From assembly GCA_018401055.1 (NCBI GenBank), contig JAGYLB010000117.1, forward strand, positions 1-20,568: a stretch of DNA of 20,568 bases, written 5' to 3'. The position numbers and the translations under genes are program-made. The stretch is from Roseicyclus sp. Its GTDB lineage: Bacteria; Pseudomonadota; Alphaproteobacteria; Rhodobacterales; Rhodobacteraceae. Shown here piece by piece: positions 2,606 to 19,165 of the stretch. Numbering within the stretch: the stretch's first letter is position 1; every line of letters starts with the position of its first letter. The notes beneath the pieces were generated by a model. It ran no database searches, was not told where the DNA came from, and saw nothing but the letters and a program-made list of their open reading frames with translations.

Positions 2606-3858
2606 TCAGTGCAGGCGGTTGCGGCGGATCTTGCCGTCGATCAGCACCAGGCGCGGACGCGCTGGTCTGGCGGAGGATACGAAGACCGACAGATCGGTCA
2701 GGGGATCGCCATCCACGAGGATCATGTCAGCCAGAGCGCCGGGAGTGATCTGCCCCAGCTGGCCCGCGCGCTGCACGATCTCGGCGTTGATCGAGGTGGC
2801 GGAGCGCAGCACGTCCACGGGGCGTTGCACCTGTCCGCGCAGCAGCAATTCGCGGCCTTGGGTCTGCAGGAAGATGTCGCCATGCAGATCGCAGCCGAGC
2901 CGAGCTTCACACCGGCGGCAATGCAGGCCTCGATCGCATCGAGCGTGCGTTTGTTGACCTCGCGCACCTTCTGGGTCGCGGAGCTTGGCAGGCCAGCTCG
3001 GCTGCGTTTTCGGCGACTCAGCTCTCCCGCCGACGGGGTGGGCACCACGAAGGCATGCCGGCTGCCGCGATCCAGCCTCGCCGTCTCGGGCGTGATCAGG
3101 CTGCCGTGCTCGATCGATGCAGCACGCCCAGATCGATGCAGCGGCGCGCTCCTTCGTCGGTATGGCAATGGGCCATAACATAGGAGCCGCGCCGGGCGGC
3201 CTCCTCACGGCGACGCGGATTTCGGCATCGGTGAAATGGGGCATCGCCAAGGGGGCGAGTTCCGTCGATACGCCGCCCGACAGGAAAATCTTGATCTGCG
3301 TCGCGCCCTGGCGGAATCGCTGCCGCACGGCCTTGCGCATCTCGTCTGGGCCATCGGCGGCGCCCCGCAGATGACGCCGGCATATTCGCCGCAACCGCAG
3401 AGGTCCGGCTCGCCGCGTCTGCGCATGTCGCCATGGCCGCCGGTCTGGGTCAGGGCCTTCCCGGGGTAGAAGAACCGCGGCCCGTCGACGACCCCGGCAT
3501 CAAGCGCCTGGGCGAGTCCGACATCGCCGCCGCCGGCATCGCGGATCGTCGTGTAGCCGCGATCCACGGCGCCGGTCAGAAGCCGTACCGCATGGGAGGC
3601 GAGCAGGGCCGGATGCATCCTGTCGGTGCCGTAGAAATCGTAGCTGGGCGTATTGGCATGGTAATGGGCGTCGATCAGCCCCGGCATCAGGAAGTGGCCA
3701 GCGCAATCGATCCGGGTGGCATCTCCGGCATAGATGACGCCGGGCCCCGCCTCGCGGATCCGGGCGCCCTCGATCACCACGGCGGCGCCCTCGACCGCAT
3801 CCTCCGCCAGGCCGTCCCAGAGACGCGCATCGTGCAGGACGGTGATCGCGTTGCTCAT
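2606..3858 (-). CDS. Metal-dependent amidohydrolase (imidazolonepropionase/prolidase-like), frameshifted
   Basis: The last gene of the minus-strand operon, about 417 codons once repaired. Metal-site features of the amidohydrolase superfamily appear in order: LIDAHYHAN (HxH, near 3670), KIFLSGG (lysine, near 3285), MAHCH (near 3175), IEHGS (near 3105) and CDLHGD (aspartate, near 2885). The C-terminal cap reads LGQITPGALADMILVDGDPL. The family hydrolyses cyclic or linear amide bonds in the cytoplasm; the closest relatives by pattern are the Xaa-Pro dipeptidase-like amidohydrolases. The ATG overlaps the M20 stop as ATGA (3855-3858), showing translational coupling. As given, the frame shifts near 3360, 3207, 3115 and 2900, each equivalent to one missing base. 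A compensating pair is also likely at 2985-3025, where the good sequence lies in neighbouring frames. The stop is TGA at 2606-2608. The substrate is unknown. Confidence 0.8.
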
Positions 3859-5243
3859 GCCGACATCCTTCCTAGACGATCGAGAAGCGCTGCGCCGGTG
3901 CGGATCCCGTCATGGAACAGCGCGATCTCGAGGTTTTCGTTCGGGGCGTGATTGGCTTCGTCCGCATTGGCATAGGGCGTGACGAAGGCCGGCAGGCCCA
4001 GGATGTTGGTGAAGGCATAGTCCGGCAGGCTGCCGCCGACGCTGGGGTAAAGGTAGGGCGCGACACCGCGCGCCAGTTGCACCGCGTCCACGATCGCTGG
4101 CGCGAAGGGATCGTCGAGCGGCGTGCGAGGGCAGCATTCCGCCGTGACCGATGACCTCCACCTCGCCGTCGGGGGCATGCTTTTCGACATGCGCGCGCAC
4201 GCAGGCCAGCACCTGCTCCGGGGTCATGTCGGGGACCAGGCGGATGTCGCATTTCGCCACGGCTTCGGCGGGCAGGACGGTCTTGGTGCCCGGGCCCCCG
4301 TAGCCGCCGTGAATGCCGTTGATCGTCAGGGTCGGGTGGAACATCAGCCGGTCGTGGAAGGGGCGATCGGCGGGCGCGTCGAGCCGGTGGGAGCGCCATG
4401 TCCGCAAGATAGCCGAGCACATCGACCGGAAGCTGCGGCGGCGGCGGCACGCTCGGCGTTGGAGGGCGGGCGGATGGGATCATGCAGGCCGTCGATGGTG
4501 ATGTTTCCCTGCGCGTCCTTCATGGTCCCCAGAAGATGGACCAGCGTCCAGAGCGCGTTTGGCATGGTGCCGCCGTGATTGCCGGAATGGGCATCGGTCC
4601 GACCGGTGCGCACGCGCAATTCGAACCCCACCATGCCGCGCACCCCGAAGGTCACGATTGGCGTGCCCGAGGCATGGAGTGGGCCATCGGCCGTGACCAC
4701 CAGATCGGCCTTCAGGCGGTCGGCATGCCGGGCGACGAATTCCGCGATGCGGGGCGAGCCGATCTCCTCCTCGCCTTCCAGCAGGAAGATGACGTTGCAG
4801 GGGAGGGTGCCGTGGACCTTCAGATGCGCCTCGATCGCCAGAAGCTGCGCGAAATGCTGGCCCTTGTTGTCGCCGATTCCGCGGGCATAGATGCGGCCGT
4901 CGCGGATCGTCGGCTCGAAGGGCGGGCTGACCCATGCCTCCAGCGGGTCGGGCGGCTGGACATCGTAATGGCCGTAGAGCAGGGCCGTGGGCTTGCCCGG
5001 TGCCTTGCAATGGTGGCCGAGGACCATCGGATGACCGGAGGTGGGCACTGCCTCGGCGGCGAAACCTAGCGCGCCAAGGTGATCGACCAGCATCGCCGCG
5101 ACCTCGCGGATGCCGATGTCATGTGCCGAGATGGAAGGGTGGCGGACATAGTCCATCACGCGGGCCAGATTGTCGTCGCGATGGGCCTCGATATGGCCGA
5201 AGACCGCGGCGAGCGTGTCGGGGATGCCTGTCTGGTAGGTCAT
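3855..5243 (-). CDS. M20 family metallopeptidase (dipeptidase/deacylase-like), frameshifted
   Basis: About 462 codons, the normal size for M20 dipeptidases. Visible motifs are LLYGHYDVQPPDPLEAW (metal His and Asp), RGIGDNKGQ (bridging Asp), LEGEEEIGS (catalytic and metal glutamates), DAHSGNHGG in the dimerisation region, and NHAPNENL near the C-terminus (last metal His). The family cleaves dipeptides, N-acyl or N-carbamoyl amino acids in the cytoplasm with two zinc-type ions. Here it could hydrolyse the product of the HyuAB ring opening (inference). The start at 5243 overlaps the HyuA stop (ATGA) and its own stop overlaps the next start. Three frame changes, each equivalent to one extra base, lie near 4440, 4394 and 4122. 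Reading across them gives LPVDVLGYLADMALP, then RLDAPADRPFHDRLMFHP, then RTPLDDPFAPAIVDAVQ. Confidence 0.85.
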
Positions 5244-7280
5244 GGGTCCGCCTTGGTTAGGATCAGGGCACCGGAGGGATGCACAACGCCGGACCAGCCC
5301 GGTGCGATCAGGGTTGTCGTGTCGAGTTGGCTGACGATGGCGGGGCCTTTCAGCACAGCGCCCGCGCCGAAGGTGGCGCGATCATAGAGCGGCACGTCCT
5401 GACGGCCCGCCGGGAGCGAAACCGAGACACGCTCGACCGGCTCGGGTGTGACACCCGGCGCCAGCACGGCGGGGGCAGGGGCTTTTGCATCGTGGCGCGG
5501 GCTTCAACCCGCAGGGTCACAAGCTCGATCGGAGCGCCCAGTTGAAAGCCGTACAGCGCCTTGTGGGCAGCCGTCAATCCGGCCTCGAGGGCATGTGCCG
5601 TATCGGCCCAGGGGATCGACAGCTCGTTGCCCTGTCCGGCGTAGCGCATGAGCGCGACGCGGCTGGTCTGGCGGTCTGCCTTCGCCACACCCTCGGCATC
5701 GAACCAGGCGGCGGCGTCGGCTTCGAGATCTGCGCACATGCGGCCTGCCTCGTCCATGTCCGCAACGCCGGCGCGGGGGCGGGCGCGGCTGAATTCCGAC
5801 TTGAGGTCGGCTGCCATGAGGCCGTCGGCGCAGAGAATGCCGGGCGCGGGCACGATCAGCACCCGGCGGGTGCCGACCAGATCGGCCAGGGCGCAACCGT
5901 GCAGCGGACCCGCCCCGCCGAACGGCAGCAGGGTGAAGTCGCGGGGTCGAAGCCACGCTCCACCGAGACGACGCGCAGGGCACCAACCATCTTGTTGTCG
6001 GCAATGGCGAGGATGCCGCGCGCGGCCTCTTCCACGGCGATGCCGAGGGGCTTGGCCACGCCGTCCTCCACCGCGCGGCGAGCGCGCCACGACGTCGAGC
6101 GTCATGGCGCCGCCGAGGAGTCGCGCGGGCAGGTGCCCTAGCGCGACATGGGCGTCGGTGACGGTCGCGTGCACCCCGCCGCGCCCATAGGCGGCAGGGC
6201 CCGGCGTGGCGCCCGCGCTTTCCGGGCCGACGGTCAGCACGCCACCGGCGACGCGCGCGATGGACCCGCCGCCCGCGCCGATGGTCACCATGTCGACCAT
6301 CGGCAGGGCAGCGGCCAATCGCCCACCTGTCCCCGCTGTGTCAGGCCGATCTTGCCAGCGGCGATCAGGCAGATATCCGCACTGGTGCCGCCGATATCGA
6401 CGGTCACGGATATCGTCGATGCCGCATGCGGCCGCCGCCGATCGCGCCTCGACGACGCCCGCCGCCGGTCCCGGACAGGGCGGTCAGGGCGGGGCGGAGC
6501 GGATCTGGCCGCGCCCGCCACCCCACCGTTGGACTGCATCAGCAGGAGGGGGGCGGGCACGCCCTCTGAGCGCAGCTTTTCCTCGATCCGGCCCACATAC
6601 CGCGTGACGCCGGGCATCACGATCGCGTTCAGGACGGAAGCCAGCGTCCGCTCGTATTCGCGCACCACGGGCAGCACGTCGGAGGAGGCGGTGACGGCGA
6701 CATCGGGAAGGGCCAGTCGCAGCATCTCGGCCACGCGGCGTTCGTGGTCCGGATTGGCAAAAGCATGGAGCAGGCAGATGGCGACTGCGTCAACATCCAT
6801 CTCGCGCAGAGCTTCGGCGGCGCGCGCCACGCTTGCCTCGTCCAGGGGTTCCCCGACGATGCCGCCGGGCAGGATACGTTCGGCCACCTCGACGATGCGG
6901 GAGGCGGGGACGGGGCGTTGCGGCTTGATCCAGTTGTAGAGATTGGCCGCACGGGGAATGTCCTGGCGCCCGATGCCGAGCACGTGGCGGAAGCCCTTTG
7001 TCGTGACCAGGGCCGCGCGCGCGCCCTTGCCTTCGAGGATCATGTTGGTTGCGACGGTGGTGCCGTGCAGCACCTGGCGAAGATCTGCGGGCTCCGCGCC
7101 TGCTGCCCGCAGAGCAAGGCGCAGCCCGTCTAGGAAGGCCTCGGAGGGGTCGTCGGGTCGCGAGGGGGTCTTTGCGCGCCAGACCTGCCCGGTCGCGGTA
7201 TCCGCAAGGGCCACATCGGTGAAAGTGCCGCCGATATCGACGGCAAGGGTAAGTGTCGCGGCGCGACCATCAAAGGACAT
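5240..7280 (-). CDS. hyuA: HyuA: ATP-dependent hydantoinase/oxoprolinase A subunit, frameshifted
   Basis: About 680 codons, as expected for HyuA. The ATP-binding actin-like fold begins at [14 protein letters not shown] (residues about 12-25). [17 protein letters not shown] follows near residue 75, and the second ATPase half reads [14 protein letters not shown] near base 6390. [11 protein letters not shown] (near 6275) and [15 protein letters not shown] (near 5905) are typical of the hydantoinase A / oxoprolinase family. With HyuB it opens a cyclic amide such as a hydantoin or 5-oxoproline at the expense of ATP; which ring cannot be told. The ATG at 7280 lies inside the end of hyuB (stop 7270) and the stop at 5240 overlaps the M20 start. 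Indels lie near 6496, 6469, 6408, 6312, 6075, 5947 and 5477. Several sit in C/G runs, for example DPRDFTLL restored by one C near 5947. Confidence 0.85.
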
Positions 7281-9086
7281 CGAGGTATTCCTTGCGGTGG
7301 AACGGTTTGACCTGCGGGCGTACGGCTCTGAGCCGGACGGTTTCCCGCCTCGTCCACGGTGCGGCGCGAGACGGCGACGCCATAGTCGCGGCGCGCCGCC
7401 CTCGGGGCTGACGAGGCCTGCCAGCACATCCTCCAGCACATGGGCGGTCTCGCGGTCGAAGGGATGGCCGCAACCGCCGCCGCCACCGGTCTCGATTCGC
7501 ACCACATCGCCCTTCTTCAGCATCGTGCCATCGGACAGCTGGAGGAAGTTGCTTCTCGGTCGCGGTGCCGGGATTGATCACGATGCGTCCCGGCGCGCCG
7601 GATTGTCCGCCGTTGATGCCCCAGGGGGGGGTCTGCACCCCGTCAATGCGGATCCCCAACATGGCGGTATCGGCGAGGATCTCGTATTCGCGCAGGATCC
7701 CGGCCCCGCCGCGGAACTTTCCCGGCCCGCCACTGTCGCGCACCATGCCGTAGGCGCGGAAGGCAACGGGATAGCCGAGTTCCGTGAACTCGATCGGATA
7801 ATTCTCCTGCGCCACGAAGTAGACGGCGTCTATGCCGTCGGCAAGGCCGCGCGCCGTACCCACGCCGATGCCGTCGGCCCGGGAGGAACGGCGTCGGGCT
7901 GCCATCCTCGGCCGTGTAGCTGCCCCGGATGAGGGCAACGACATAGGCGGCCTGGGCCGCGGGCGCCTGGCCGCCCGCCACATTGACCAGGCCGTTGAGC
8001 GTCGCGAGCACGCGCATCATCGTGAGACCGCGCATCCCGAGGGGGGCGGGCCATTTCGGTTTCACCAGCGAGCCCTCGCGCAGCCGCACCTCGTCCAGCG
8101 CCAGCGGCCGCGCCCGCGTTGCAGACCTGACCGGGCTCGCCGCCGAGGTAGAACAGGCCCAGCGCCATCCCGGGGATGGATCGGTTCATCAGCAGGTTGA
8201 CCGGGCCGCGGGCCTGGTCGTCGGTCTCGGTCGCATCGAAGATGAAGCGGTCCTCACCGTCCTGGCCCTTCTCGCGGATGATCGCGAAGCGCAGGTGGAA
8301 CGGGCCGTTGCCATGCCCGTCGCTGTCGATTGCGTCGGTGAAGCGATGGGTGCCGTAGTCGAAGGTTTCCGCCAGTTTGCGGCGCACCAGCTTTCGCGTG
8401 CGATCCAGCAGCTGCGCCAGCGCATCCTCCAGCACATCCGCGCCGAAGCGCGCGGACGCCTCGGCCATGCGCTGGGTGCCGAGGCGGACGCTGGCCATGA
8501 GCGCGCTCATGTCGCCCTCGCTTTGCGCCGGGAAGCGGGAGTTGCGATGGAAAATCGCCAAGGCTGCTTCATTCACCGCCGCCGGCCGAGATCAGCCGGG
8601 TCGGGGGATGATGATGCCCTCCTGCCAGATTTCGGTCGCGTCGGGACTGATCGAGCCGGCGCGCATTCCGCCGATATCGGCAAAATGGGCCCAGGACATG
8701 ACGAAGGCCACCCGCTTGCCGTTGTGGAAGACCGGAGCGAGCAGGACCTGATCGTTGGAATGGCTGACCGCCCCGTAGGAGCCATAGCAGTCATTGTACC
8801 AATAGAGGTCTCCCTCGCGCATCGTCTCGACCGGGAAATGCTCGAATACCGGGGTCGTGATGTCCCCGAAGATCGGCACCATGGAGCCCACGGCCATTAC
8901 GCCGTCGCGGTCGAAGATGGCGGTGTAGAAATCCTTCTTTTCGCGGATGAAGGCGGAGATGGCCGTGCGCTCGATCAGGGCTTCCATCTCGCTCTGGGCG
9001 GCCTGGATGGCACCCTGGATGATCTCGAGGGTGATCGGATCGCACACGGTCGCGGCGGCGACGAAAGGGTCAGGGGCGTGGGTCAT
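7270..9086 (-). CDS. hyuB: HyuB: hydantoinase/oxoprolinase B subunit, frameshifted
   Basis: About 605 codons. The N-terminal DPITLEIIQGAIQAAQSEME, IREKKDFYTAIFDRDG and WAHFADIGGMRAGS are classical HyuB, as are FDATETDDQARGPVN, GGGGGCGHPFDRE and DSGGPGKFRGGAG further on. HyuB forms the hydrolytic part of the complex with HyuA. The start at 9086 is 3 bases after the stop of the upstream ATPase gene; the end at 7270 overlaps hyuA by 11 bases. Indels: a paired loss and gain near 8605 and 8580 (restores IIIPPTRLISAG then NEAALAIF), then five one-base insertions near 8109, 7880, 7553, 7395 and 7343. The run at 7343 (AAACC for AACC) is a clear homopolymer case. The C-terminus reads TVRLRAVRPQVKPFHRKEYL in the last frame. 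Uninterrupted codon bias argues against genuine decay. Confidence 0.85.
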
Positions 9087-9089
9087 GGA

Positions 9090-10082
9090 TCACGTCTCCG
9101 GTTCATACAGGTGACAATGGACGATGCGGCCGCCGACGCGGGTGGGACCGGGGCCTCGATGCGCAGCGCAGAGGCTTTCCGGGCAGCGGTCGCGGAAAGG
9201 TGCAGCCCGAGGGCGGATTGCGGGTCGGGCGCGCCGCGCCGCGATGGGCAGAGCATCGTGGCTCTGGTCGGGATGGGGTACGGGAACCGCGGCGACGAGG
9301 GCCTGGGTATAGGGGTGAAGCGGGTCTACGACGATGTCTTCGGTCGGGCCATCCTCGACGATGCGACCGAGATACATGACGATGGTACGCTCGCAGACAT
9401 ACCGGACCAGTGCCAGATCGTGGCTGATGTAGATGGCCGTGATGCCGGTCTGCCGCCGCACGTCGCGAAACACGTTCAGCACGCCGGCGCGAACCGACAC
9501 ATCGAGCATCGAGACAGGCTCGTCGGCGACCACGAATTCGGGCTTGAGGATCAGGGCGCGGGCCATGACGATGCGCTGAAGTTGCCCGCCGGACAGCTGG
9601 TGCGGATAGCGATCCATGAACTGTCCGGGATCGCCCAGCTTCACAAGCTCCATCGCGTGCAGGATGCGGTCTTCGTGTTCGGATTTGGGAATGCGCGCGT
9701 TTTCCAACGGTTCGGCCAGCACGTCACGGATCGTGAAGCGGGGGTTCAGCGCCTCGAACGGATTCTGGAAGATCATCTGGACGCGACTGCGGAAGCGTTT
9801 GAGCGCGTCGCCGGACAACGCGCTGACATCCTCGCCGTCGAATTCCACCCGCCCTCCGGTGGCCTTGTCGAGGCGCACCAGCATCCGCCCCGTCGAGGTC
9901 TTGCCGCAACCGCTTTCGCCCAGCAGGCCGACGCTTTCGCCCCGGTGCAATTCGAACGAGACGCCATCGACCGCCTTCACGACGCTTGCCCGGCCGCGCA
10001 GTTGCGCGAGCGCTCCTCCGACGGGGAAGTGCAACGCGGCCGCGTCGAGCTTCACGAGCGGCGAGGTCCTGATGTCCTTCAT
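9090..10082 (-). CDS. dppF: Oligopeptide-type ABC transporter ATPase (DppF/OppF-like)
   Basis: 330 residues from the ATG at 10082. An upstream ATG at 10241 in the same frame would cover the end of the preceding gene and is not the start. Walker A is GESGCGKTS (residues 55-63), the Q loop is in MIFQNPFEALNP (about 104-115), the ABC signature is LSGGQLQR (163-170), Walker B is FVVADEP (183-189), and the switch histidine is in YISHDLALV. The C-terminal DPLHPYTQALVAAVP and the cysteine-containing FRDRCPESLCAAHRG identify the peptide/nickel subfamily. It energises the DppBC permease pair on the cytoplasmic side. The ATG overlaps the repaired stop of the partner ATPase (ATGA at 10082-10079). Bases 9190-9250 probably carry a compensating indel pair, because PSGCTF, expected before RDRCP, reads in a neighbouring frame. 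Confidence 0.9.
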   Translation of the reverse strand: MKDIRTSPLVKLDAAALHFPVGGALAQLRGRASVVKAVDGVSFELHRGESVGLLGESGCGKTSTGRMLVRLDKATGGRVEFDGEDVSALSGDALKRFRSRVQMIFQNPFEALNPRFTIRDVLAEPLENARIPKSEHEDRILHAMELVKLGDPGQFMDRYPHQLSGGQLQRIVMARALILKPEFVVADEPVSMLDVSVRAGVLNVFRDVRRQTGITAIYISHDLALVRYVCERTIVMYLGRIVEDGPTEDIVVDPLHPYTQALVAAVPVPHPDQSHDALPIAARRARPAIRPRAAPFRDRCPESLCAAHRGPGPTRVGGRIVHCHLYEPET

Positions 10083-11106
10083 TCCTGACCCCGCCGCTGA
10101 ATGGCCCAGGTTTCCGAGACCGTCGCCCTGGCCCTGAGCGCCTGTGCCTCGGCGATCCGGTGGCAGGCAGCGAGGTGATCGCCCTGATAGGCAATCAGGT
10201 CTGGCACCTCGGTCCGGCAGCGCGCCTCCACGAAGGGGCAACGGGCGGCGAAGCGGCAGCCGGGCGGCAGGTTCGCGAGGTCGGGGGCGCGCCCTCGATG
10301 GGCGTCAGCTCTCCGCCGGCACTGGCCAGATCAGGGAAGGCGTTGCGCAGGCCCATCGTGTAGGGATGTGCCGGCGCGGTCAGGGTCGCGGCCATGGGTC
10401 CGGTTTCCACGACGCGGCCCGCATACATCACCACGACACGGTCACAGACATAGGCCACGACAGAGATGTCATGCGTGACCAGAATGACCGAAATCCCCAG
10501 CCGTTCCTTCAACTCGCGCAACTGGTCGAGGATCTGCCGCTGGACGATCACGTCGAGTGCGGTGACAGGCTCGTCGGCGATGATGAGCTTGGGGTCGAGC
10601 GCAAGGGCCAGGGCGATCGCCGCGCGCTGACGCATGCCGCCCGAGAACTGGTGCGGGTAATCCCCAAGCCGGTTGGTTTCGATCCCGACCCATTCGAACA
10701 GCTCTTCGGAGCGCTTTCGTGCCGCCGCGCGCCCAATTCCGCCGCGCCGTGTCAGCACCTCGGCCAGTTGCGAGCCGACGGTATAGACCGGATCGAGCGA
10801 GTTCATCGCCGATTGCGGGATGAAGGCGATCTCGCGCCACCGCAGCGCATTCATCGCGCGTTCCGGCAGGGCCACGATGTCCTGTCCGCAAAACAGCGCC
10901 TTGCCGCCGGCAATGCGCGCATTGCCCGCCAATACGCGCGTCAGCGAGCGGGCAAGCGTGGTCTTGCCGCAGCCGCTTTCGCCCACGAGACCCACGATGC
11001 TGCCGGGTTCGACATCGAAGGTCGCACCTTCCACCGCGATCGTGTCGTGGTTACCGACCCTGTAGGCGATGGACAGATCCTTGAGGGACATGAGGGGTTT
11101 GGTCAT
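10079..11106 (-). CDS. dppD: Oligopeptide-type ABC transporter ATPase (DppD/OppD-like), frameshifted near C-terminus
   Basis: About 342 codons when repaired. Walker A is GESGCGKTT (42-50), Q loop AFIPQSAMNSLDP (94-106), signature FSGGMRQR (154-161), Walker B LIIADEP (174-180), then THDISVVAYVCDRV. HPYTMGLRNAFPDL is the usual peptide-subfamily tail. As given, the original frame runs on to a stop at 10195. One base is missing from the C run near 10290 (GAPPDLANLPPGCRF restored), after which the correct frame reads FAARCPFVEARC and ends at TGA 10081-10079, overlapping the DppF start. That exact overlap supports the repair. The start at 11106 overlaps the permease stop as ATGA. With DppF it forms the heterodimeric ATPase of the importer. 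Confidence 0.9.
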
Positions 11107-12017
11107 CGGTCCAACTTCGGGAAAAGGATCTGCTCATACCCGCGGGAGATGAAGAACCCGGCAGAGACGATCATGATGATGAGGAAGCCCGGGGGCACGA
11201 ACCAGTAGTAGGAACCCTTGGACAGCGCCTGCGAGGCGAAGGCGTCCTGCAGCATGTACCCCCAGCTGATCGAATCCGGATCACCGAAGCCGAGGAAACT
11301 GATCGAGGCCTCGGTGAGGATCGCCCAGCCGATGGCGATGGAGCCGTAGAGGAACGACAGTGGCAGCACGTTGGGGGCGATATGGCGCAGGATGATCTTG
11401 AAATCCGACGAGCCCGAGACGCGCGCGGCCTCCACATAGACCCTGTTGCGGAGCGTGAGTGTCTGGCTGCGGATCACGCGGCCGGTGTCGCGCCACAGGA
11501 CCAGTGCCATGGCGATGACGACGTTCCAGATCGACGGCTCGAGGAAGGCCGCGAGGACAATGACGAAGGGCAGGAACGGGATGCCGAAGGCGACATCGGC
11601 AAGACGCATCAGGATGGTATCGACCCAACCACCGAAATAGCCGGCGACGATGCCGATGATCGACCCGATCAGGGCGACCATGAAGGCCGCCGTCAGCCCG
11701 ATCAGCAGGGCAGAGCGCGCGCCCCAAACGATCTGTGAAAACACGTCCCGGCCAAGGGTCGTGGTTCCCAGGATGTAGCCGTCGACGCCCGGTCGCAGGT
11801 CCCTAGCGAGCGCGAACTCGGAGGTGAAGAGGATCTCGTTCGGGTCGTGGGTCGCGATCTGGGGCGCGAAGACGGCGATGGTGATGAAGAAGAAATAGAT
11901 GCACAGGCCGATCACCGCGAGCGGATCGTGCAGCGGCAGGCGGATGGCGCCGAAGGTCCGGCGCAGCCGCGCGAAGCAGCCGGGCATTTCCTGGCTGGAG
12001 GTCGCGGCGTTACTCAC
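11103..12017 (-). CDS. dppC: Oligopeptide-type ABC transporter permease (DppC/OppC-like)
   Basis: An intact 304-residue inner-membrane protein. It has a cytoplasmic N-terminus of about 30 residues, a first membrane span near 33-52, a periplasmic loop, and the family hallmark LGTTTLGRDVFSQIVWGAR (83-101). More spans follow, and the EAA-type loop VEAARVSGSSDFKIILRHIA (195-214) contacts the ATPases. The C-terminal GFGDPDSISWGYML is also typical. It forms the translocation pore with the DppB-like protein. The start at 12017 lies inside the last codons of dppB (8-base overlap) and its stop overlaps the DppD start. No indel was found here, in contrast to most genes of the window. Confidence 0.93.
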   Translation of the reverse strand: MSNAATSSQEMPGCFARLRRTFGAIRLPLHDPLAVIGLCIYFFFITIAVFAPQIATHDPNEILFTSEFALARDLRPGVDGYILGTTTLGRDVFSQIVWGARSALLIGLTAAFMVALIGSIIGIVAGYFGGWVDTILMRLADVAFGIPFLPFVIVLAAFLEPSIWNVVIAMALVLWRDTGRVIRSQTLTLRNRVYVEAARVSGSSDFKIILRHIAPNVLPLSFLYGSIAIGWAILTEASISFLGFGDPDSISWGYMLQDAFASQALSKGSYYWFVPPGFLIIMIVSAGFFISRGYEQILFPKLDR

Positions 12018-12987
12018 GGGTCACCCTCGGATCAAGTGCGGCATAGAGAAGGTCGGCCACAAGGTTCATCAGGATCACGACGACCGCGATCATCAGGAAG
12101 GCGCCCTGCGCAAGCGGGTAGTCGGCGGTCGAGACGGCGCGCACCAGTTCGCGCCCAAGGCCAGGCCATGAAAAGACCGTCTCAACGACCACATTGCCCT
12201 GTATCTGGTAGCCCACGGCAATGGCGAAGGAGGTCATGACGGGCAGCAGGGCGTTGCGGGCGGCATGGCGGATCACCACCGAGAAGGTGGACAGGCCCTT
12301 GATGCGGGCCATGGTCACGAAATCCTCGCGCATGACATCCATCATGTTCGAGCGCATCAGAAGCAAGGGCAGGCCCTGGCTGTAGATCGCCAGCGTCACG
12401 ACGGGCAGCGTCATGTGCCGCCAGAAATCGGCCGATGTGTACAGGGCCCAGATGGAGTCATATTCGGCGCCCGGCTCTCTCGTGCCGCCGGCGGGAAACA
12501 GGCCGAGGCTGAAACTGAAGACCGCGAGCAACAGCATGCCGAGCCAGAATTCCGGCATCGCGCGTGTCGTCAGGACAAGAGGTACGGCAAGTTGCTCCAC
12601 CGCGGAGCCGCGTTTCCAGGCGAGGTAGGCACCTGCCAGAACGCCGAACGCATAGGCCAGGATGAGGGAGGTGAAAGTCAGGATCAGCGTATTGGGCAGA
12701 AGCGACAGGACCCGTTCCGCGACCGGCTGGCGGTAGAAGAAGCTTTCGCCCAGATCCCCCTGCAGGATATTGCCGAGATAGATCAGGTATTGCCGCCACA
12801 AGGGCTGGTCGAGGCCGAAGCGGGCCATCAGCTCCGCTTGTTGTTCCGGCGTGAAGTTCGGGTCGATGTAGGCGGCCAGAGGGCTGCCCGGCATCAGGCG
12901 GAACATGAAGAACAGGATGGTGATCACCGCCAACAGTACAAACGCAGTTTGCAGCAAACGCGCTCCGATGACGGTGATCGCCTTCAT
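12010..12987 (-). CDS. dppB: Oligopeptide-type ABC transporter permease (DppB/OppB-like)
   Basis: An intact 325-residue inner-membrane protein. The first span is at about residues 9-30, followed directly by RLMPGSPL, then the typical periplasmic stretch FGLDQPLWRQYLIYLGNILQ (57-76) and DLGESFFYRQPV. More spans lie near 100-124, 143-165, 192-212, 249-267 and 292-314. The EAA-type loop is DFVTMARIKGLSTFSVVIRH (222-241). ETVFSWPGLGRELVRAV (269-285) is a family signature. AAAGGG lies about 9 bases before the ATG. It begins 34 bases after the stop of the binding-protein gene and overlaps dppC by 8 bases. No indel was seen. Confidence 0.93.
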   Translation of the reverse strand: MKAITVIGARLLQTAFVLLAVITILFFMFRLMPGSPLAAYIDPNFTPEQQAELMARFGLDQPLWRQYLIYLGNILQGDLGESFFYRQPVAERVLSLLPNTLILTFTSLILAYAFGVLAGAYLAWKRGSAVEQLAVPLVLTTRAMPEFWLGMLLLAVFSFSLGLFPAGGTREPGAEYDSIWALYTSADFWRHMTLPVVTLAIYSQGLPLLLMRSNMMDVMREDFVTMARIKGLSTFSVVIRHAARNALLPVMTSFAIAVGYQIQGNVVVETVFSWPGLGRELVRAVSTADYPLAQGAFLMIAVVVILMNLVADLLYAALDPRVTRE

Positions 12988-13021: not shown

Positions 13022-14672
13022 TTATTCGCTCAGGGTTTCAGATACCCCCTCGGGGTAGTTCAGCCGACCATCGACGACGAGATAGCCTGCATCGGCCAGC
13101 GTCTGCTGTGCCACGTCGATCCCGGCTTCCATGCCGGTGGCAGTCTCCTCGTTGTGCCAGAACGCGAGCGCAGGCGAGACGACCGAGTTGGACGGCACCG
13201 CGAAGCCTTGGAAGGCGGCTCCCACGATCAGTCGGCGGTCCACGGCCGCAGACAAGGCACGGCGGAAGGCCGGGTCATTGAATGGAGGACGGCGGTGGTT
13301 GAAGGCCACATACCGGAAGCCGATGTCGATGGTGGAGATGGCGGTCAGGTTCGGATCCTCTTCTGCGGCGGCCACCACGACGGTCGGATCGCCGGGGAAG
13401 TCCGACAGGAAGTTTATCTCGCCCGAGCGCAGCATTCCGAGCGCGGCTTCCACGTTGGGGACGATCCGCAGGATCCAGCGGTCGGCGTTGGGCGCCGCCC
13501 AATGATCGGCATTGGCTTCAAGAACGACTTCTTCGTTCAGGGTCCAGCTGCCAAACCGGTAGGGGCCGGAGCCGACCGGAACTTCTTCCTGGAAGGATTC
13601 CGCGTTGGTCTCGAGCGTCAGCTGCTCTTCGATGACCGGCGCCCAGATATGCATCGGGATCAGGTTGATCTTGGCAAGGCTGGCGGTGAGAAACGGCGCC
13701 GAGGGCTGGCTGAGCGTGAAGGTGATGTCCATGCCGTCGATGGTCATGTCCGCGATACCGCTGACGAAAGGACCATACATCGGTGCCTCGCCCGAACCGG
13801 CTGCCTGGAAGGAGAACACCACATCCTCGGGTGTCACCGGCTGACCGTCATGCCACATCATGCCCTCGCGGAGGGTCACGGTGATGGTGGTATCGTCGAT
13901 CCACTCGTAGCTTTCGGCCGCCCAGAGCTGCGGCAGGCCGTCGGGACCGATCCGCATCAGGCGGTCGTAAGATCAGCTCGGTGATCCAGCTGTCGGTGCC
14001 GCCGGAAATATAGAGCGGGTTGATCGCGGTGACGTTGTCCGAGGAGTTCAGGATGATGTCCGTCACATCACCAAGAGGTTCCAGCTGGAGATAGCTCCAG
14101 GTGTTGCGGATGCCGATGCCCGACTGATCCACGACGCTGTCGGGATTCCAGATGGTGTTGTTGAACGCATAGGTCGATTGCGGGTGCGCCAGCATCATGT
14201 TGGGCTGATCTGCGGCCAACATGGCCTGCGCCTGGCGGACGAGTTCGCGCCGCTCGTCCGGGTCGAGGGCGACCCGCTGCGCCTCGACGAGGGCGTCATA
14301 GGCGGGGTTGTTGTAGCCGATGAAGTTGAAGCCCTGTTCCGCCGTCGAGGAATGGAACAGGTTGAACACGATCTCGTCCGGGTCGGAGCGTTCGGGGCGC
14401 CCGACCATCTGCCACGCGGTCGTGTCCCACTCTTCGCGGCTGAACCAGATCTCCTGGATCATCTGCTCCCAGGGCATGACCTCGACGTTCACGTCCAGAC
14501 CCAGCCTGCGCCATTCCTGGGCGATCAGCTGGGTGAACTGGAATTCGGCAGGTTGCGCGGCCTGGGGACGGGTGACGATGTTGATCGTCCGGATTTCTTC
14601 TGCCGCAACCGGTGTCAGCACGGTGGCCGACAGCATCGCAGCAAGTGCAGAGATTCTTAGGGGCAGTGTCAT
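13022..14672 (-). CDS. Periplasmic binding protein of a peptide-type ABC importer (SBP_bac_5) with circularly permuted domain order; one frameshift
   Basis: About 549 residues. The ATG at 14672 has AAAGGAG about 7 bases upstream; a TTG at 14678 is a weaker option. Residues 1-24 are a Sec signal peptide ending VAA. Residues 28-176 (LIAQEWRRLGLDVNVEVMPW, SDPDEIVFNLFHSS, FIGYNNPAYDALVEAQR, LDPDERRELVRQAQAMLAAD) match what is normally the C-terminal part of DppA/OppA-type proteins. After a linker, residues 205-549 (NPLYISGG, YDRLMRIGPDGLPQLWAAES, LREGMMWHDGQPVTPEDVVF, GSGPYRF, FRRALSAAVDRRLIVGAAF, AQQTLADAGY) match the normally N-terminal two thirds. The parts together make one complete fold in rotated order. 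A single extra T near 13970 breaks the frame (ELIYDRLM when removed). It is followed 34 bases later by the permease genes. The ligand is unknown. Confidence 0.85.
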
Positions 14673-14720
14673 CTTCAATCTCCTTTGGCGTATGTTGGAC
14701 GACGTGAGGGGCGCTCGCCT

Positions 14721-15476
14721 TCAGGCGACGCGCATGTCAGAGGCGGTTTTCCCCGCCTTCATCTTCGCAGGTGTGGGCCATGCCTTCTTGGAATGGGCGA
14801 GACCCATGGAGACCAGCAGTTCGGCGTGCTTGACGGCGGCCCGGCCTGCATTGACGACCGGCACGCCGACCTCGGCCCCGATCTCGTCGCCCATGTCGAG
14901 GAACGACATCGTCATGCAGCCGAACAGAAGCGCATCGGCCCGGTCTTGGCCGACGCAGGCGCGGGCGACCTCGATCAGGCGCCGTTTCGTCGCCGCCGGG
15001 TCCTTCATCAACTCAAGCACCGGGATGTTGGTGGGGCGCACCGAGGCGAGCTTGGCCCGCACACCGGCATGAACGGCCAGCATTTCCTGCCCGGCGATCA
15101 GGCTGTCGAATATCGTCAGCACGCTGAACTTGTGTCCCAGTCCGGCGGCCAGCAGCATCGCGGTTTCAGAGGGGCCGACGACCGGCATCGACACCAGCTC
15201 GTGCCGCTTCCAGGCCCGGATCGCCAGCAGCTGATGATGGCGGCGTCGAAGCCCCTGGCCTCGCAGTCCATGATCAGGTCGAGCGTGGGGGGGATGGCCA
15301 GCATCTCCTCGTAGGCCGATTCGATGGAGGCGGGGCCGGTGGGCACGATCGATCACGAAATCTCCGTGCCATCGAAGGCCCATGTGTTCATCATTGTGTC
15401 TCTCGCGGCGCTGCATTTCCGCCCGGCCCATCGGGCCTTTCGACATCGGTCCCGGCACGACATACGCGATTTTCAT
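14721..15476 (-). CDS. Aspartate/hydantoin racemase family protein, frameshifted
   Basis: About 251 codons; first gene of the minus-strand operon. The start is ambiguous between two adjacent ATGs (15479 and 15476). The second has better spacing from AAGGGG and gives the family-typical MKIAYVVPGPMSKGP. Family features are ASIESAYEEMLAIP (near 15305), IISC followed by GDPGLEAAR one frame over (first catalytic Cys, near 15225), VVGPSETAMLLAAGLG (near 15165) and LLFGCMTMSF (second Cys, near 14915). These two cysteines act as the two-base pair in Asp/Glu/hydantoin racemases, which invert a carbon next to a carboxylate or ring carbonyl. In this operon a role on hydantoin-like substrates is plausible (inference). 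Indels fall near 15410, 15355 and 15190-15240, where an in-frame TGA otherwise interrupts. The binding-protein gene starts 48 bases downstream. Confidence 0.75.
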   Translation of the reverse strand: MKIAYVVPGPMSKGPMGRAEMQRRERHNDEHMGLRWHGDFVIDRAHRPRLHRIGLRGDAGHPPHARPDHGLRGQGLRRRHHQLLAIRAWKRHELVSMPVVGPSETAMLLAAGLGHKFSVLTIFDSLIAGQEMLAVHAGVRAKLASVRPTNIPVLELMKDPAATKRRLIEVARACVGQDRADALLFGCMTMSFLDMGDEIGAEVGVPVVNAGRAAVKHAELLVSMGLAHSKKAWPTPAKMKAGKTASDMRVA

Positions 15477-15495
15477 CATTCCCCCCTTAAAAACT

Positions 15496-15584: not shown

Positions 15585-16364
15585 ATGTCCGAGCCCCGCG
15601 ATTACACCATCGCTGCCGTCGATCGCGCGCTGAGTGTCCTGGAGGCCTTGGCAAGCCAGCCCAGGCAAGGGGTGACCGAGCTTTCCAACCGCCTGGGCCT
15701 GACCAAGACCATCGTCTTCCGTCTGTTGTCGACCCTGGAGGCACGGGGCTTCGTCACGCGTAATGACAACAAGGCGATCTACTCCCTCGGCTATCGGGTG
15801 GGGGTTCTGGGAGAGCAGGCCGGGTTGCAGAGCACCCTGCTGGCCGCCGCCCGCCCGGTGATGGAACGCCTGCGCAACGACACGACGGAGACCATCAACC
15901 TTATCCTTCGGGAAGGGCAGAGATCCCTTGTTCTGGCAACGCTGCCTGGGCATCACGCCATGCGAATATATGCAAATGCCGGGCGGTACGGGCCATTGCA
16001 TGCCGGCGGCGGGTCCATGCTGCTGCTGGCCTTCGCGCCGGAGGAGGGTTCGCGAAAAACCGTTCTTTCCTGAACGGCTCAGAAGCCTATACCGCCTCCA
16101 CCGTGACAAACCCGGAAAGAGCTGCGTGCGCGCCTCGACATGATCGGCGCCGATGGTTTCAACATCGCGATGAATGACCTCGACGAGGGTGCGTTTTCGA
16201 TTGCCGCCCCGGTGCTCGGCGCCTCTCGCCAGGTGATTGCCGCGGTCTCGATCGCGGGGGCCATGGCGCGCTACGACGAGACGCGCCGACGCCGGTTCCT
16301 TGATCTCGTTGGCGAGGCGGTTGCCGAAATAAGCGGCAAACTCGGTCTGTCGGCCGGCGTGTGA
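15585..16364 (+). CDS. IclR family transcriptional regulator, frameshifted in the effector domain
   Basis: About 259 codons. The ATG at 15585 follows AGAGGAGAG. The N-terminal winged helix spans residues about 8-70 (AVDRALSVLEAL, GVTELSNRLGLTKTIVFRLL, LEARGFVTRND, IYSLGYRVGVLG). The C-terminal effector domain contains TINLILREGQRSLVLAT and LHAGGGSMLLLAFAPEE, and after the damaged stretch DEGAFSIAAPVLGASRQVIA and MARYDETRRRR. As given, the frame stops at 16072. Insertions near 16043 (GGG), near 16060, and in the A run near 16118 (AAA for AA) account for the break. Between them LNGSEAYTASTVTNPE reads in a third frame, as expected for the family. IclR proteins bind a small effector and mostly repress neighbouring catabolic operons. 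Here it lies divergent to the transport/hydantoinase operon and upstream of the M28 gene. Confidence 0.85.
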
Positions 16365-16460: not shown

Positions 16461-18183
16461 ATGTTGACTTCGGAAATCGCAATTCTCGACCAGGTGACGA
16501 TGGATGAGCCCTGGGGGCTGGTGCAAAGCTTTGCGACGTTCAAGCGGGAGCATCCGACCGATGTGAACCGCGGCATGGACGAGGTCGTGGAACGCCTGTC
16601 ACGCCACGGGGTTCCGACAACGGTGCACCGGCCGTCGCTGTATCTGAGCCTGCCCGGCGAGGCGCGGGTGGAGGCTGCGGGCAAGACCTTTCGTGCCAAG
16701 CCGCCGGCCTATGCAACGGATGCGCGGGGCGGCGTGACAGCGCGTCTTGTCTATCTTTCCGCCAATGCGGTGGACGACATCGACGACATGTTCGACATCA
16801 AGATCGACGGTGCGGCGGCCAAGGCTGGCCAGGCCAGGGGTGCCATCGTGGTGTCCGAGGGGTTTGCCAGCCCGGTCATGGTTCGGCAGTTCGAGGATCT
16901 TGGCGCCGTGGGCGTCATCGCGATCAATCCCGGGGTGGATATCCATTGGGGCATCTGCACCACCATCTGGGGTGTGCCGACCTGGACGATCTGCCCCGCA
17001 AGCCCGGCATCCCGCCGTCGCTGTCAACAAGCCGGACGGAGAGGCGCTGATCGCGCTGGCCAAGGCGGGCGGCGAAGTCACGGTCTTCACGCAGATGGAA
17101 GAAGGCTGGTTCGACAGTAAGCTGGTCGAAGTCACGATCCCCGGAACGGAGGAGCCGGACAAGTTCGTGCTGCTTCACGGCCATCTGGACAGCTGGGATG
17201 TCGGTGTGGGCGACAACGCCGTCGGCGATGCCGCCATGCTGGAGATCGCGCGCGTGCTTTGGGCCAACCGCGACAAGCTGCGCAGGTCGGTCAAGATCTG
17301 CTGGTGGCCGGGCCATTCCACCGGGCGCTATGCCGGATCCACCTGGTATGCCGACGCCTTTGCCATCGAGCTTGACGAGAACTGCGTGGCGCAGGTCAAT
17401 TGCGACAGTCCGGGGTGCCGCTGGGCGACCGAGTTCCTCAACCTGTCCCGCATGTCCGAGACAGATGACCTGATTAGCGCGGTGATCGACGAAGTCGCAG
17501 GCAAGAAGGCCGAGGGCGAGCGCCCGCATCGTGCGGGGGACTATTCCTTTAACAACATCGGGATCACTGGCTATTTCATGCTGTCCTCGACGATGCCCAC
17601 CGCGCTGCGGGAAGAGAAGGGCTATTACACCGTCGGAGGCTGCGGCGCCAACATTGCCTGGCATACCGAAAACGACACGATGGACATTGCCGACAAGGAG
17701 ATCCTCGAGAGGGACGCAGGGTCTATCTGCTGGCGATCACTGCGCACCGCGACAGCGCGCGTCCTGCCCTTCGACTGGCGTGCGACAGCCCGGGAGTTCC
17801 AGAAGACCATTGCCAAATACCAGGCTGCTGCCGGCGATCGCTTTGACCTTGGGCCTTCCGCCCAGGCGGCGCAGGAGCTTCTGGACAGGTTGGAAGGCTT
17901 CTACAGCGGTGTGAAATCCGGTGCCGTGTCCGAGGCCAAGGCCAACATCGTGATCCAGGATCTGGCGCGCATCCTTGTGCCGATCAACTTCACGCGCGAG
18001 GTGCGTTTCCGCCATGATCCGGCGGCGACGATCCCGCCGTTGCCGACCATCCACGCCGCGACGGAGCTGGACCTTCACGACGGCGCGCTCGGATTTGCAC
18101 GAAATCACCTGGTGCGAGGTCAAAATCGCGTGGTCGCGGCCCTGCGGCAAGCCACCCGGCACGTCACACTTGTTTCCAGCTGA
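16461..18183 (+). CDS. M28-like metallopeptidase with PA domain and variant active site, frameshifted
   Basis: About 573 codons. The ATG at 16461 has AAAAGGGG about 7 bases upstream. The N-terminal third holds a PA (protease-associated) insert (ARGAIVVSEGFASPVMVRQF, GAVGVIAINPG). The M28 core follows: LLHGHLDSWDVGVGDNAVGD (metal His/Asp), WWPGHSTGRYAGSTWYAD where canonical M28 enzymes have GEE-x-GLxGS, NCDSPG (metal Asp) and WHTENDTMD (last metal His). The family cleaves N-terminal residues from peptides. The absence of the two glutamates is discussed as a finding. No signal peptide is visible, so it is probably cytoplasmic. Two single-base deletions near 16983 and 17012 shift the frame (PTLDDLPRKPGIPAVAVNKP when repaired), and a compensating pair lies near 17717-17745. 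The TGA overlaps the next ATG (TGATG at 18181). Confidence 0.8.
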
Positions 18184-19165
18184 TGCGGGCGGTCACCTAT
18201 GCGCAGACGGGGCAGGCAGAGCAGGTTCTGCGTGTCTTGGAGATGGCCAGGCCCTCACCTGCAGCGGGTGAGGTGCTGGTCCGCATCGCGGCCTCCGGGA
18301 TCAATCCGGCGGATGTGAAGCGCCGCGCCGGCTGGGGCGGGATGCAGATGGGGCATCCGGTCGTGATCCCGCATTGCGACGGTGCCGGCACGATCGAGGC
18401 CGTGGGCGATGGCGTCAGCGCCGCGCGGGTTGGTCAGCGGGTCTGGCTCTGGAATGCTCAGGGCGGCTATGGCGAGGCCGGGCGCGCCTTCGGGACGGCG
18501 GCAGAATACATCGCCCTTCCCGAGACACAGGCAGTGCCGCTGCCGGACCATTTCACCCTGGAGCAGGGTGCATGCCTTGGCGTGCCCGCCATGACCGCAT
18601 TCCACTGCGTCCTGTCCGAGGGGCCGGTCGAAGGGAAAGACAATTCTTGTTCAAGGGGGCCGGCAGCGTCGGCTACCTGGCGGTTCAGATCGCCCTCAGG
18701 GAGGGCGCCTGCGTTCTGGCCACCGTCAGCGATCCCGACGCCGCCGCCCGGCTGCGCACCCTTGGCGCCGAGGCGATCAACCGCCATCAGGAAGACGTCG
18801 CCGAAGCGGTCGAGATCCTGACCGGAAGAAGGGGCGTTGACCGCATTGTCGAGGTCGATTTCGCGGCGAACCAGAGGATCGATGCCCGAATGATCAACGT
18901 GAGCGGAAGCATCGCCAGCTTTTCCAGCTCGTCGAACCCCACGCCCGTTCTCGATTACTACGCCTTCGCGTCAAAGGGCGCGACCGTCCGCTTCGTTCAA
19001 GGCTTTGCCTTGCCCAACCGGGTCAGGGCGCGCGGCGAGATCTGGCTGGCGGGCCATCAGATCGAAATCCCCATCGCAGCAAGGTTTCCCCTAGATCGCT
19101 GCGCCGAAGCGCATCGCCACGTCGAAAAATCCAGGGCCTTCGGCCAGACGGTGGTGATCCCCTGA
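18183..19165 (+). CDS. Zinc-free medium-chain dehydrogenase / quinone-oxidoreductase-like protein, frameshifted
   Basis: About 327 codons. The N-terminal GroES-like domain includes EVLVRIAASGINPADVKRRA and HCDGAGTIEAVGDGV. LGVPAMTAFHCVL precedes the cofactor domain, whose AGSVGYLAVQIA is the NADPH-binding turn of the MDR superfamily. The catalytic-zinc cysteines are absent, as in NADPH:quinone reductases. The reaction is probably reduction of a quinone or an activated alkene or carbonyl. Net loss of one base at 18640-18665 (an extra A and a missing GC next to G runs) separates the two halves. The stop is TGA at 19163-19165. The start overlaps the M28 stop (TGATG), so the two are co-translated. 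Its role in the catabolic unit is unclear. Confidence 0.8.

Follow-up and report, generated by a model that had tools for sequence, protein, structure and literature searches.

A circularly permuted cluster C binding protein in a Roseicyclus contig, and signs of repeated permutation in the SBP_bac_5 family

A 20,568-nucleotide stretch of Roseicyclus sp. DNA (GCA_018401055.1, contig JAGYLB010000117.1; the whole stretch is called the window below) encodes a 549-residue solute-binding protein (SBP) of the SBP_bac_5/cluster C type at 14672..13022 on the minus strand, with one frame break. The best explanation, in which we have high confidence, is that this component of an ATP-binding cassette (ABC) importer is a natural circular permutation. 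It also seems probable that the ends of the cluster C fold have moved repeatedly, through at least three separate permutations at two sites, with a connection in lobe 2 cut twice, and that one of the resulting families is spread in Archaea and Bacteria, is common in haloarchaea and is named as ordinary SBPs. It is uncommon for a natural protein to be circularly permuted, and more so for one family to be cut again at the same connection. Because such swaps are found in many bacteria and archaea and have arisen more than once, they suggest that a common binding-protein fold can be re-cut in evolution without losing its job. The parts of the gene are as follows, in window positions (P and L numbers are our handles for proteins and loci).

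14601..14672 (-): signal peptide, about residues 1-24 (translation and motif scan; border drawn by eye)
14076..14600 (-): canonical C-terminal block, residues about 25-199, the rest of lobe 2 and the return to lobe 1 (Pfam, PDB and DppA matches)
14064..14075 (-): linker of about 4 residues (about 200-203) from the old C-terminus to the old mature N-terminus (hidden Markov model block borders 199/204 in P0003, which has the same length as the window protein, P0002)
13967..13970 (-): frame break TTAC, one extra base relative to 97% identical homologs
13082..14063 (-): canonical N-terminal block, residues about 204-530, lobe 1 and the first half of lobe 2, ending in LADAGY
13025..13081 (-): new C-terminal tail VVDGRLNYPEG..., two short strands (DSSP of the model, E531-533 and E536-538), where the canonical chain enters the next lobe-2 strand

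The gene occupies two open frames on the minus strand, the first at 13848-14678 and the second at 13022-13957. In Pfam, residues 25-112 of the first frame match positions 282-365 of the SBP_bac_5 profile (E 2.1e-5) and the second frame matches positions 3-283 (E 4.7e-58); between them the profile is covered a single time, with its two parts exchanged. SBP_bac_5 is the only Pfam family found in either piece (E 0.001), with no MglB-type sugar-binding homology. Structures in the PDB divide in the same way. For the first piece, none of the 31 matches (E up to 1) begins before chain residue 327, as in 1xoc (378-495, E 9.7e-9) and 1dpp (358-478, E 2.7e-8), and the best 60 of 97 matches of the second piece sit in the earlier chain part, as in 6i3g (53-336, E 1.6e-28) and 1dpp (51-319, E 2.2e-17). 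When the protein is read through with one four-base step at Y235, residues 40-164 match the C-terminal half of E. coli DppA (E 1.3e-12) and residues 214-508 its N-terminal half (E 2.3e-22); neither half matches twice. A profile of 24 relatives gave the same swapped picture against the PDB. A protein search returned 2037 proteins at E <=1e-10 among 7996 scored candidates, and the C-block precedes the N-block in all 120 homologs listed. The initial annotation had proposed a true circular permutation with nothing missing or doubled, and these concordant comparisons bear it out. As judged from sequence, the order is swapped and conserved and nothing has been lost; a single confident predicted model covers the whole chain, with low predicted local distance difference test values at residues 1-21, and its lobe-1 and early lobe-2 fold aligns with both DppA and AppA.

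Several results weigh against this interpretation. No permuted chain appears among the best 60 of 102 PDB sequence matches. The rows of the sequential structural alignment span mainly residues 196-545 of P0002 and leave about 25-195 outside (Foldseek TMt 0.42-0.56 across 50 rows). The larger piece passes the curated PF00496 cut-off of 32.4 bits easily, at 197.5 bits; the smaller, N-terminal piece alone scores 24.3. This weak match would suit an N-terminal block that is an unrelated or extra domain and not the missing C-terminus. We consider that very improbable, since phmmer matches of the block to DppA, AppA and others are significant and lie, 31 of 31, in the later chain part, no half of DppA is found twice in P0002, and in a second permuted family (type B, below) the block that moved shares 46% identity with one that did not. 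The N-to-C order of the profile is not followed, but we regard that order as customary and not as a rule laid down for the family; by homology the protein still belongs to SBP_bac_5, as a permuted subgroup. The equivalog for the dipeptide-binding DppA, NF043070, was scored at 57.8 and 38.7 bits, against the 1005 needed.

The state of the window allows another view, in which the frame break, misassembly or gene fusion in noisy sequence would have produced the swap artificially. The gene does carry a one-base break, and neighbouring genes are broken too. The junction between the blocks (about residues 199-204) is nevertheless read in one frame and precedes the break (codon 235), and the 97% identical homologs P0003-P0005 are uninterrupted over 549 residues, in agreement with the initial annotation that the indel is not the cause. 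The 120 listed homologs with the same order include some named after cultured Rhodophyticola porphyridii and Nitratireductor, and in three genome samples (the R. porphyridii, Brevibacillus reuszeri and Desulfurococcaceae AG1 classes) the matches lack an inner stop in 8/10, 5/5 and 4/4 rows. The homologs refute the artefact, whose remaining chance we regard as negligible, and the circular permutation stands. The break at 13970-13967 is itself a probable sequence error and not biology: it looks like noisy sequence because other genes in the window are also split over several frames.

The position of the cut differs from that first proposed. It corresponds to positions 374-380 of the SapA profile; the N-block ends just past the LADAGY helix, plus the tail, and the C-block starts with the strand that canonically comes next. 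According to PMC8519434, domain II (the second lobe) of the Haemophilus SapA protein covers residues 313-531; judging by length, the two SapA numberings would differ by about 14. The cut therefore falls within lobe 2, some 75 residues beyond the first crossing of the hinge, so the termini are placed in lobe 2 and not, as the initial annotation had it, at the hinge. The hinge strands of EppA mark the two limits of its matching domain III (303-530; PMC7312458), and both hinge crossings would be left intact by the cut. For cluster C, PMC7312458 gives the domain III strand order as beta2-1-3-n-4; since the permuted protein is opened within domain III, its strands must be numbered differently along the sequence.

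The window type (type A) occurs across both Bacteria and Archaea, whether through age or through transfer. The locus set combined a species-genome scan with nine plasmid loci chosen as permuted-looking and with canonical E. coli DppA, OppA and Devosia loci. Two block profiles recognized 41 permuted and 52 canonical open reading frames (ORFs) in this query-biased set, and seven loci could not be classified. The permuted ORFs come from Alpha- and Gammaproteobacteria, Desulfobacterota, Bacillota, an Actinomycetota metagenome-assembled genome (MAG), a Desulfurococcaceae archaeon and haloarchaea. Single-piece plasmid matches (tblastn) were obtained from Nitratireductor, Microvirga, Neorhizobium, Ketogulonicigenium, Roseomonas, Maritalea and haloarchaea. 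The scan used one motif and was biased towards the query, so its at least 30 permuted of 80 loci are no estimate of prevalence. Genomes were counted separately with a profile of permuted members, taking single matches that begin by position 67 and reach the end, in samples that each held a known-positive centre. Permuted members were present in 61/97 genomes of the haloarchaeal class (67 had any match, 6 of these only from profile 198-215), 8/190 of the R. porphyridii class (a ninth is a contig-edge fragment), 4/151 of the Brevibacillus reuszeri class, 3/98 of the class of Desulfurococcaceae archaeon AG1 and 1/185 of the Halomonas socia class, this one being the centre itself. The expectation of similar proteins in other alphaproteobacteria was thus far too narrow. 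Among the names seen, permuted members carry ordinary SBP names in databases. In Natrinema, permuted binding proteins occur in pairs (L034:5008-6852 and 7827-9611; L037:5127-6917 and 7647-9719).

Two further permuted families were met. Type B, made up of L048 and its relatives in Bacillota MAGs, shares with type A the cut connection (after LLxEAG), a short linker and an importer operon. The cut in L048 lies about 15 to 20 residues earlier than in the window protein, before the tail position (by eye). The two swapped blocks of L048 are 56% and 46% identical to those of canonical Tepidanaerobacter L044. Type B was found in 13/199 genomes of the phylum, centre included; six further genomes hold relatives that are 48-58% identical with an N-block match only, and the three retrieved (L131-L133) are canonical. 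The MAG of L048 also yielded, by chance, type C (L112:892-2664 (+), P0123-P0235), whose named sources are mostly Bacillota MAGs. It is also a circularly permuted SBP_bac_5 protein but is cut elsewhere, after 'NPNYW' in lobe 1, where its ends stay. The signal peptide is followed by N-block 193-332, the C-block and N-block 7-191, an order seen in 107 of the 120 hits listed; the other 13 differ and include seven canonical proteins (P0236-P0242) and fragments. In the phylum sampled for type C, 16/249 genomes gave a match, centre included. A few members (P0217, P0231) have about 130-215 additional residues at the C-terminus; SBP_bac_5 is all that Pfam lists in these proteins.

At least two independent origins are well supported by the trees. 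In the N-block tree (93 rows), 40 of the 41 permuted rows form one clade (Shimodaira-Hasegawa-like approximate likelihood ratio test 98), and L048 stands apart, beside L044. In the block-wise tree (148 rows), which sampled 18 of the 107 proteins of type C along with 11 rows of type B and a selection of the later loci, the type B clade (99) is nested with canonical L044, L060 and L131-L133, its closest kin, and type C forms its own clade (100). The cut-off L035 was left out of both trees and L014, with an N-block identical to that of L002, out of the second. In approximately unbiased (AU) tests on 43 rows, chosen after the first trees had been seen, a single clade of A and B was rejected (log-likelihood 246 lower, p-AU 4.4e-38), as was one of A, B and C (p-AU 2.1e-54). 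A clade of A and C was not rejected (p 0.298), so type C may have arisen by recutting a relative of type A; three origins, with type C separate, are likely on these trees. The deep haloarchaeal clade and L101 had no firm place within A in the block-wise tree, and type A may, but need not, have a single origin. The ends may have moved by tandem duplication and fusion, after which the outer halves would have been lost and a signal peptide kept at the new front. No intermediate of this route was seen: the N-C-N-C fusion is absent from the longest type C hits (P0217, P0231, P0234, P0235), where no systematic search was made.

The window gene lies among the following genes.

4344..5243 (-): M20-family amidohydrolase/peptidase (PF01546)
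5350..7523 (-): hydantoinase A/oxoprolinase (HyuA), broken, two frames (PF05378, PF01968)
7270..9086 (-): hydantoinase B/oxoprolinase (HyuB), broken, three frames (PF02538 pieces)
9090..10241 (-): OppF-type ATPase (PF00005, PF08352); the open frame exceeds the matched part
10195..11106 (-): OppD-type ATPase (PF00005, PF08352)
11103..12017 (-): DppC/OppC-type permease (PF00528, PF12911)
12010..12987 (-): DppB/OppB-type permease (PF00528 E 1.2e-43, PF19300)
14721..15479 (-): Asp/Glu/hydantoin racemase (PF01177)
15585..16073 (+): IclR-type regulator, shortened (PF09339, partial PF01614)
16747..18183 (+): M28-family peptidase (PF04389)

With importer queries taken from loci within the type A set, a DppB-type permease was found in 28/30 main type A loci, a DppC-type permease in 26/30 and each ATPase in 25/30. 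The permuted protein would close on its ligand as a Venus flytrap and dock on the DppBC-type permeases downstream. Its old ends are joined by about four residues in lobe 1, and the new ends lie in lobe 2, after the LLxEAG helix. The ligand may, more tentatively, be a small amide (hydantoin-, oxoproline- or peptide-like) that is a substrate of the hydantoinase, M20, M28 and racemase neighbours. Most alphaproteobacterial loci of the window's subclade have HyuA, HyuB, M28 or M20 enzymes and IclR, some with a racemase, and single others have creatininase, D-aminoacylase or dipeptide epimerase. HyuA/HyuB occur in 9/30 main type A loci, which speaks against this ligand for the family, so the hydantoinase context is not that of the whole family. 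The ligand residues of DppA named in PMC12136057 are R383 and D436. The D436 column holds E94 in the window protein (by eye) and varies across the type A rows printed, and the R383 region is unaligned. These columns align too poorly for a DppA-like ligand to be drawn from them, and the attempt was dropped; a dipeptide ligand like that of DppA is not supported by the alignment.

Eight deep haloarchaeal loci (L010, L034, L036, L037, L064, L068, L085, L089) form a further exception to the importer role, as none of the eight matches the importer genes used as queries; not every permuted member, therefore, need be part of a transporter. A PAP2-family membrane phosphatase is found in all eight, against 0/82 other loci, and adjoins the binding-protein gene in the three checked (L010, L034, L036). 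The pair in L034 flanks it, one copy on each side. The combination of an orphan binding protein with PAP2 hints at a possible non-transport role in deep haloarchaea.

Compared with E. coli DppA and B. subtilis AppA, the window protein is homologous nearly full length in both blocks and has the same operon of two permeases and two ATPases, but its block order is swapped, its ends are in lobe 2 instead of lobe 1 and D436 of DppA lines up, by eye, with E94. Listings from the open-access literature, subscription papers and preprints being outside their scope and two of them covering 20 of 115 and 30 of 367 hits, gave no paper recognised as describing a permuted cluster C/SBP_bac_5 protein, which fits the earlier statement that no description or structure was known. 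A single precedent was found, TpMglB-2 (Tp0684, 'Type Ic/Cluster Bc'), a natural permuted ABC SBP that, according to PMC4990184, still binds and closes. Unlike the window protein, it is described there as a type I sugar SBP of cluster B with another cut site, and its permutation needs a fourth hinge crossing; the number of crossings in the window protein is unchanged.

A tethering idea was put forward for TpMglB-2 in PMC4990184. By analogy, the permutation could be adaptive, with ends in lobe 2 altering membrane tethering, export or closure kinetics. That type A occurs in Archaea as well as Bacteria, and that one connection was cut twice independently, would favour this. Type A members are, however, soluble, twin-arginine, lipoprotein or apparently membrane-anchored (motif scan and eye), so no single tethering need explains the permutation and tethering as a general cause is weakened; type B L048 keeps orthologous permeases, and the ends of type C stay in lobe 1. 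An adaptive cause is thus unlikely. In their plus-strand frames, L048 and L044 share a collinear first permease with 56% identity, a second with 67% over 147 residues and one of the ATPases with 51%; L044's second ATPase lacks a separate collinear partner in L048. L048 appears from these identities to serve permeases orthologous to those of canonical L044, which argues that no new docking mode is needed for moved ends. The initial annotation had suggested that moved termini could change lobe closure or contact with the permeases; the comparison of type B L048 with L044 speaks against any large change of this kind.

Type B and its canonical relatives, with about 50% identity and orthologous permeases, represent a natural experiment on the position of chain ends in ligand capture, docking and folding. 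A protein class common in haloarchaea is misread wherever alignment, annotation or structure search presumes a single chain order. Two loops are also named where binding-protein biosensors might be opened safely.

Some minor observations concern anchors and the window itself. A lipobox-like cysteine is present in all four canonical relatives of type B (L044, L131-L133) and in L127, L128 and L130 (the last two by eye), and a loose scan found no lipobox in five of the eight other type B rows (L121, L122, L123, L125, L126; the rows are L048, L120-L128 and L130). Judging by these motifs, the type B anchor may have been lost after permutation. The signal peptide of the window protein lacks a twin-arginine or lipobox motif in the motif scan. 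A viral-contig scan of the window gave zero matches. Multi-frame or early-stop genes lie at 2606-3858, 5350-9086, 13967-13970, 15585-16073 and 18183-19165; they include an amidohydrolase, HyuA (two frames), HyuB (three), IclR and a dehydrogenase (two), as expected of unpolished or noisy sequence.
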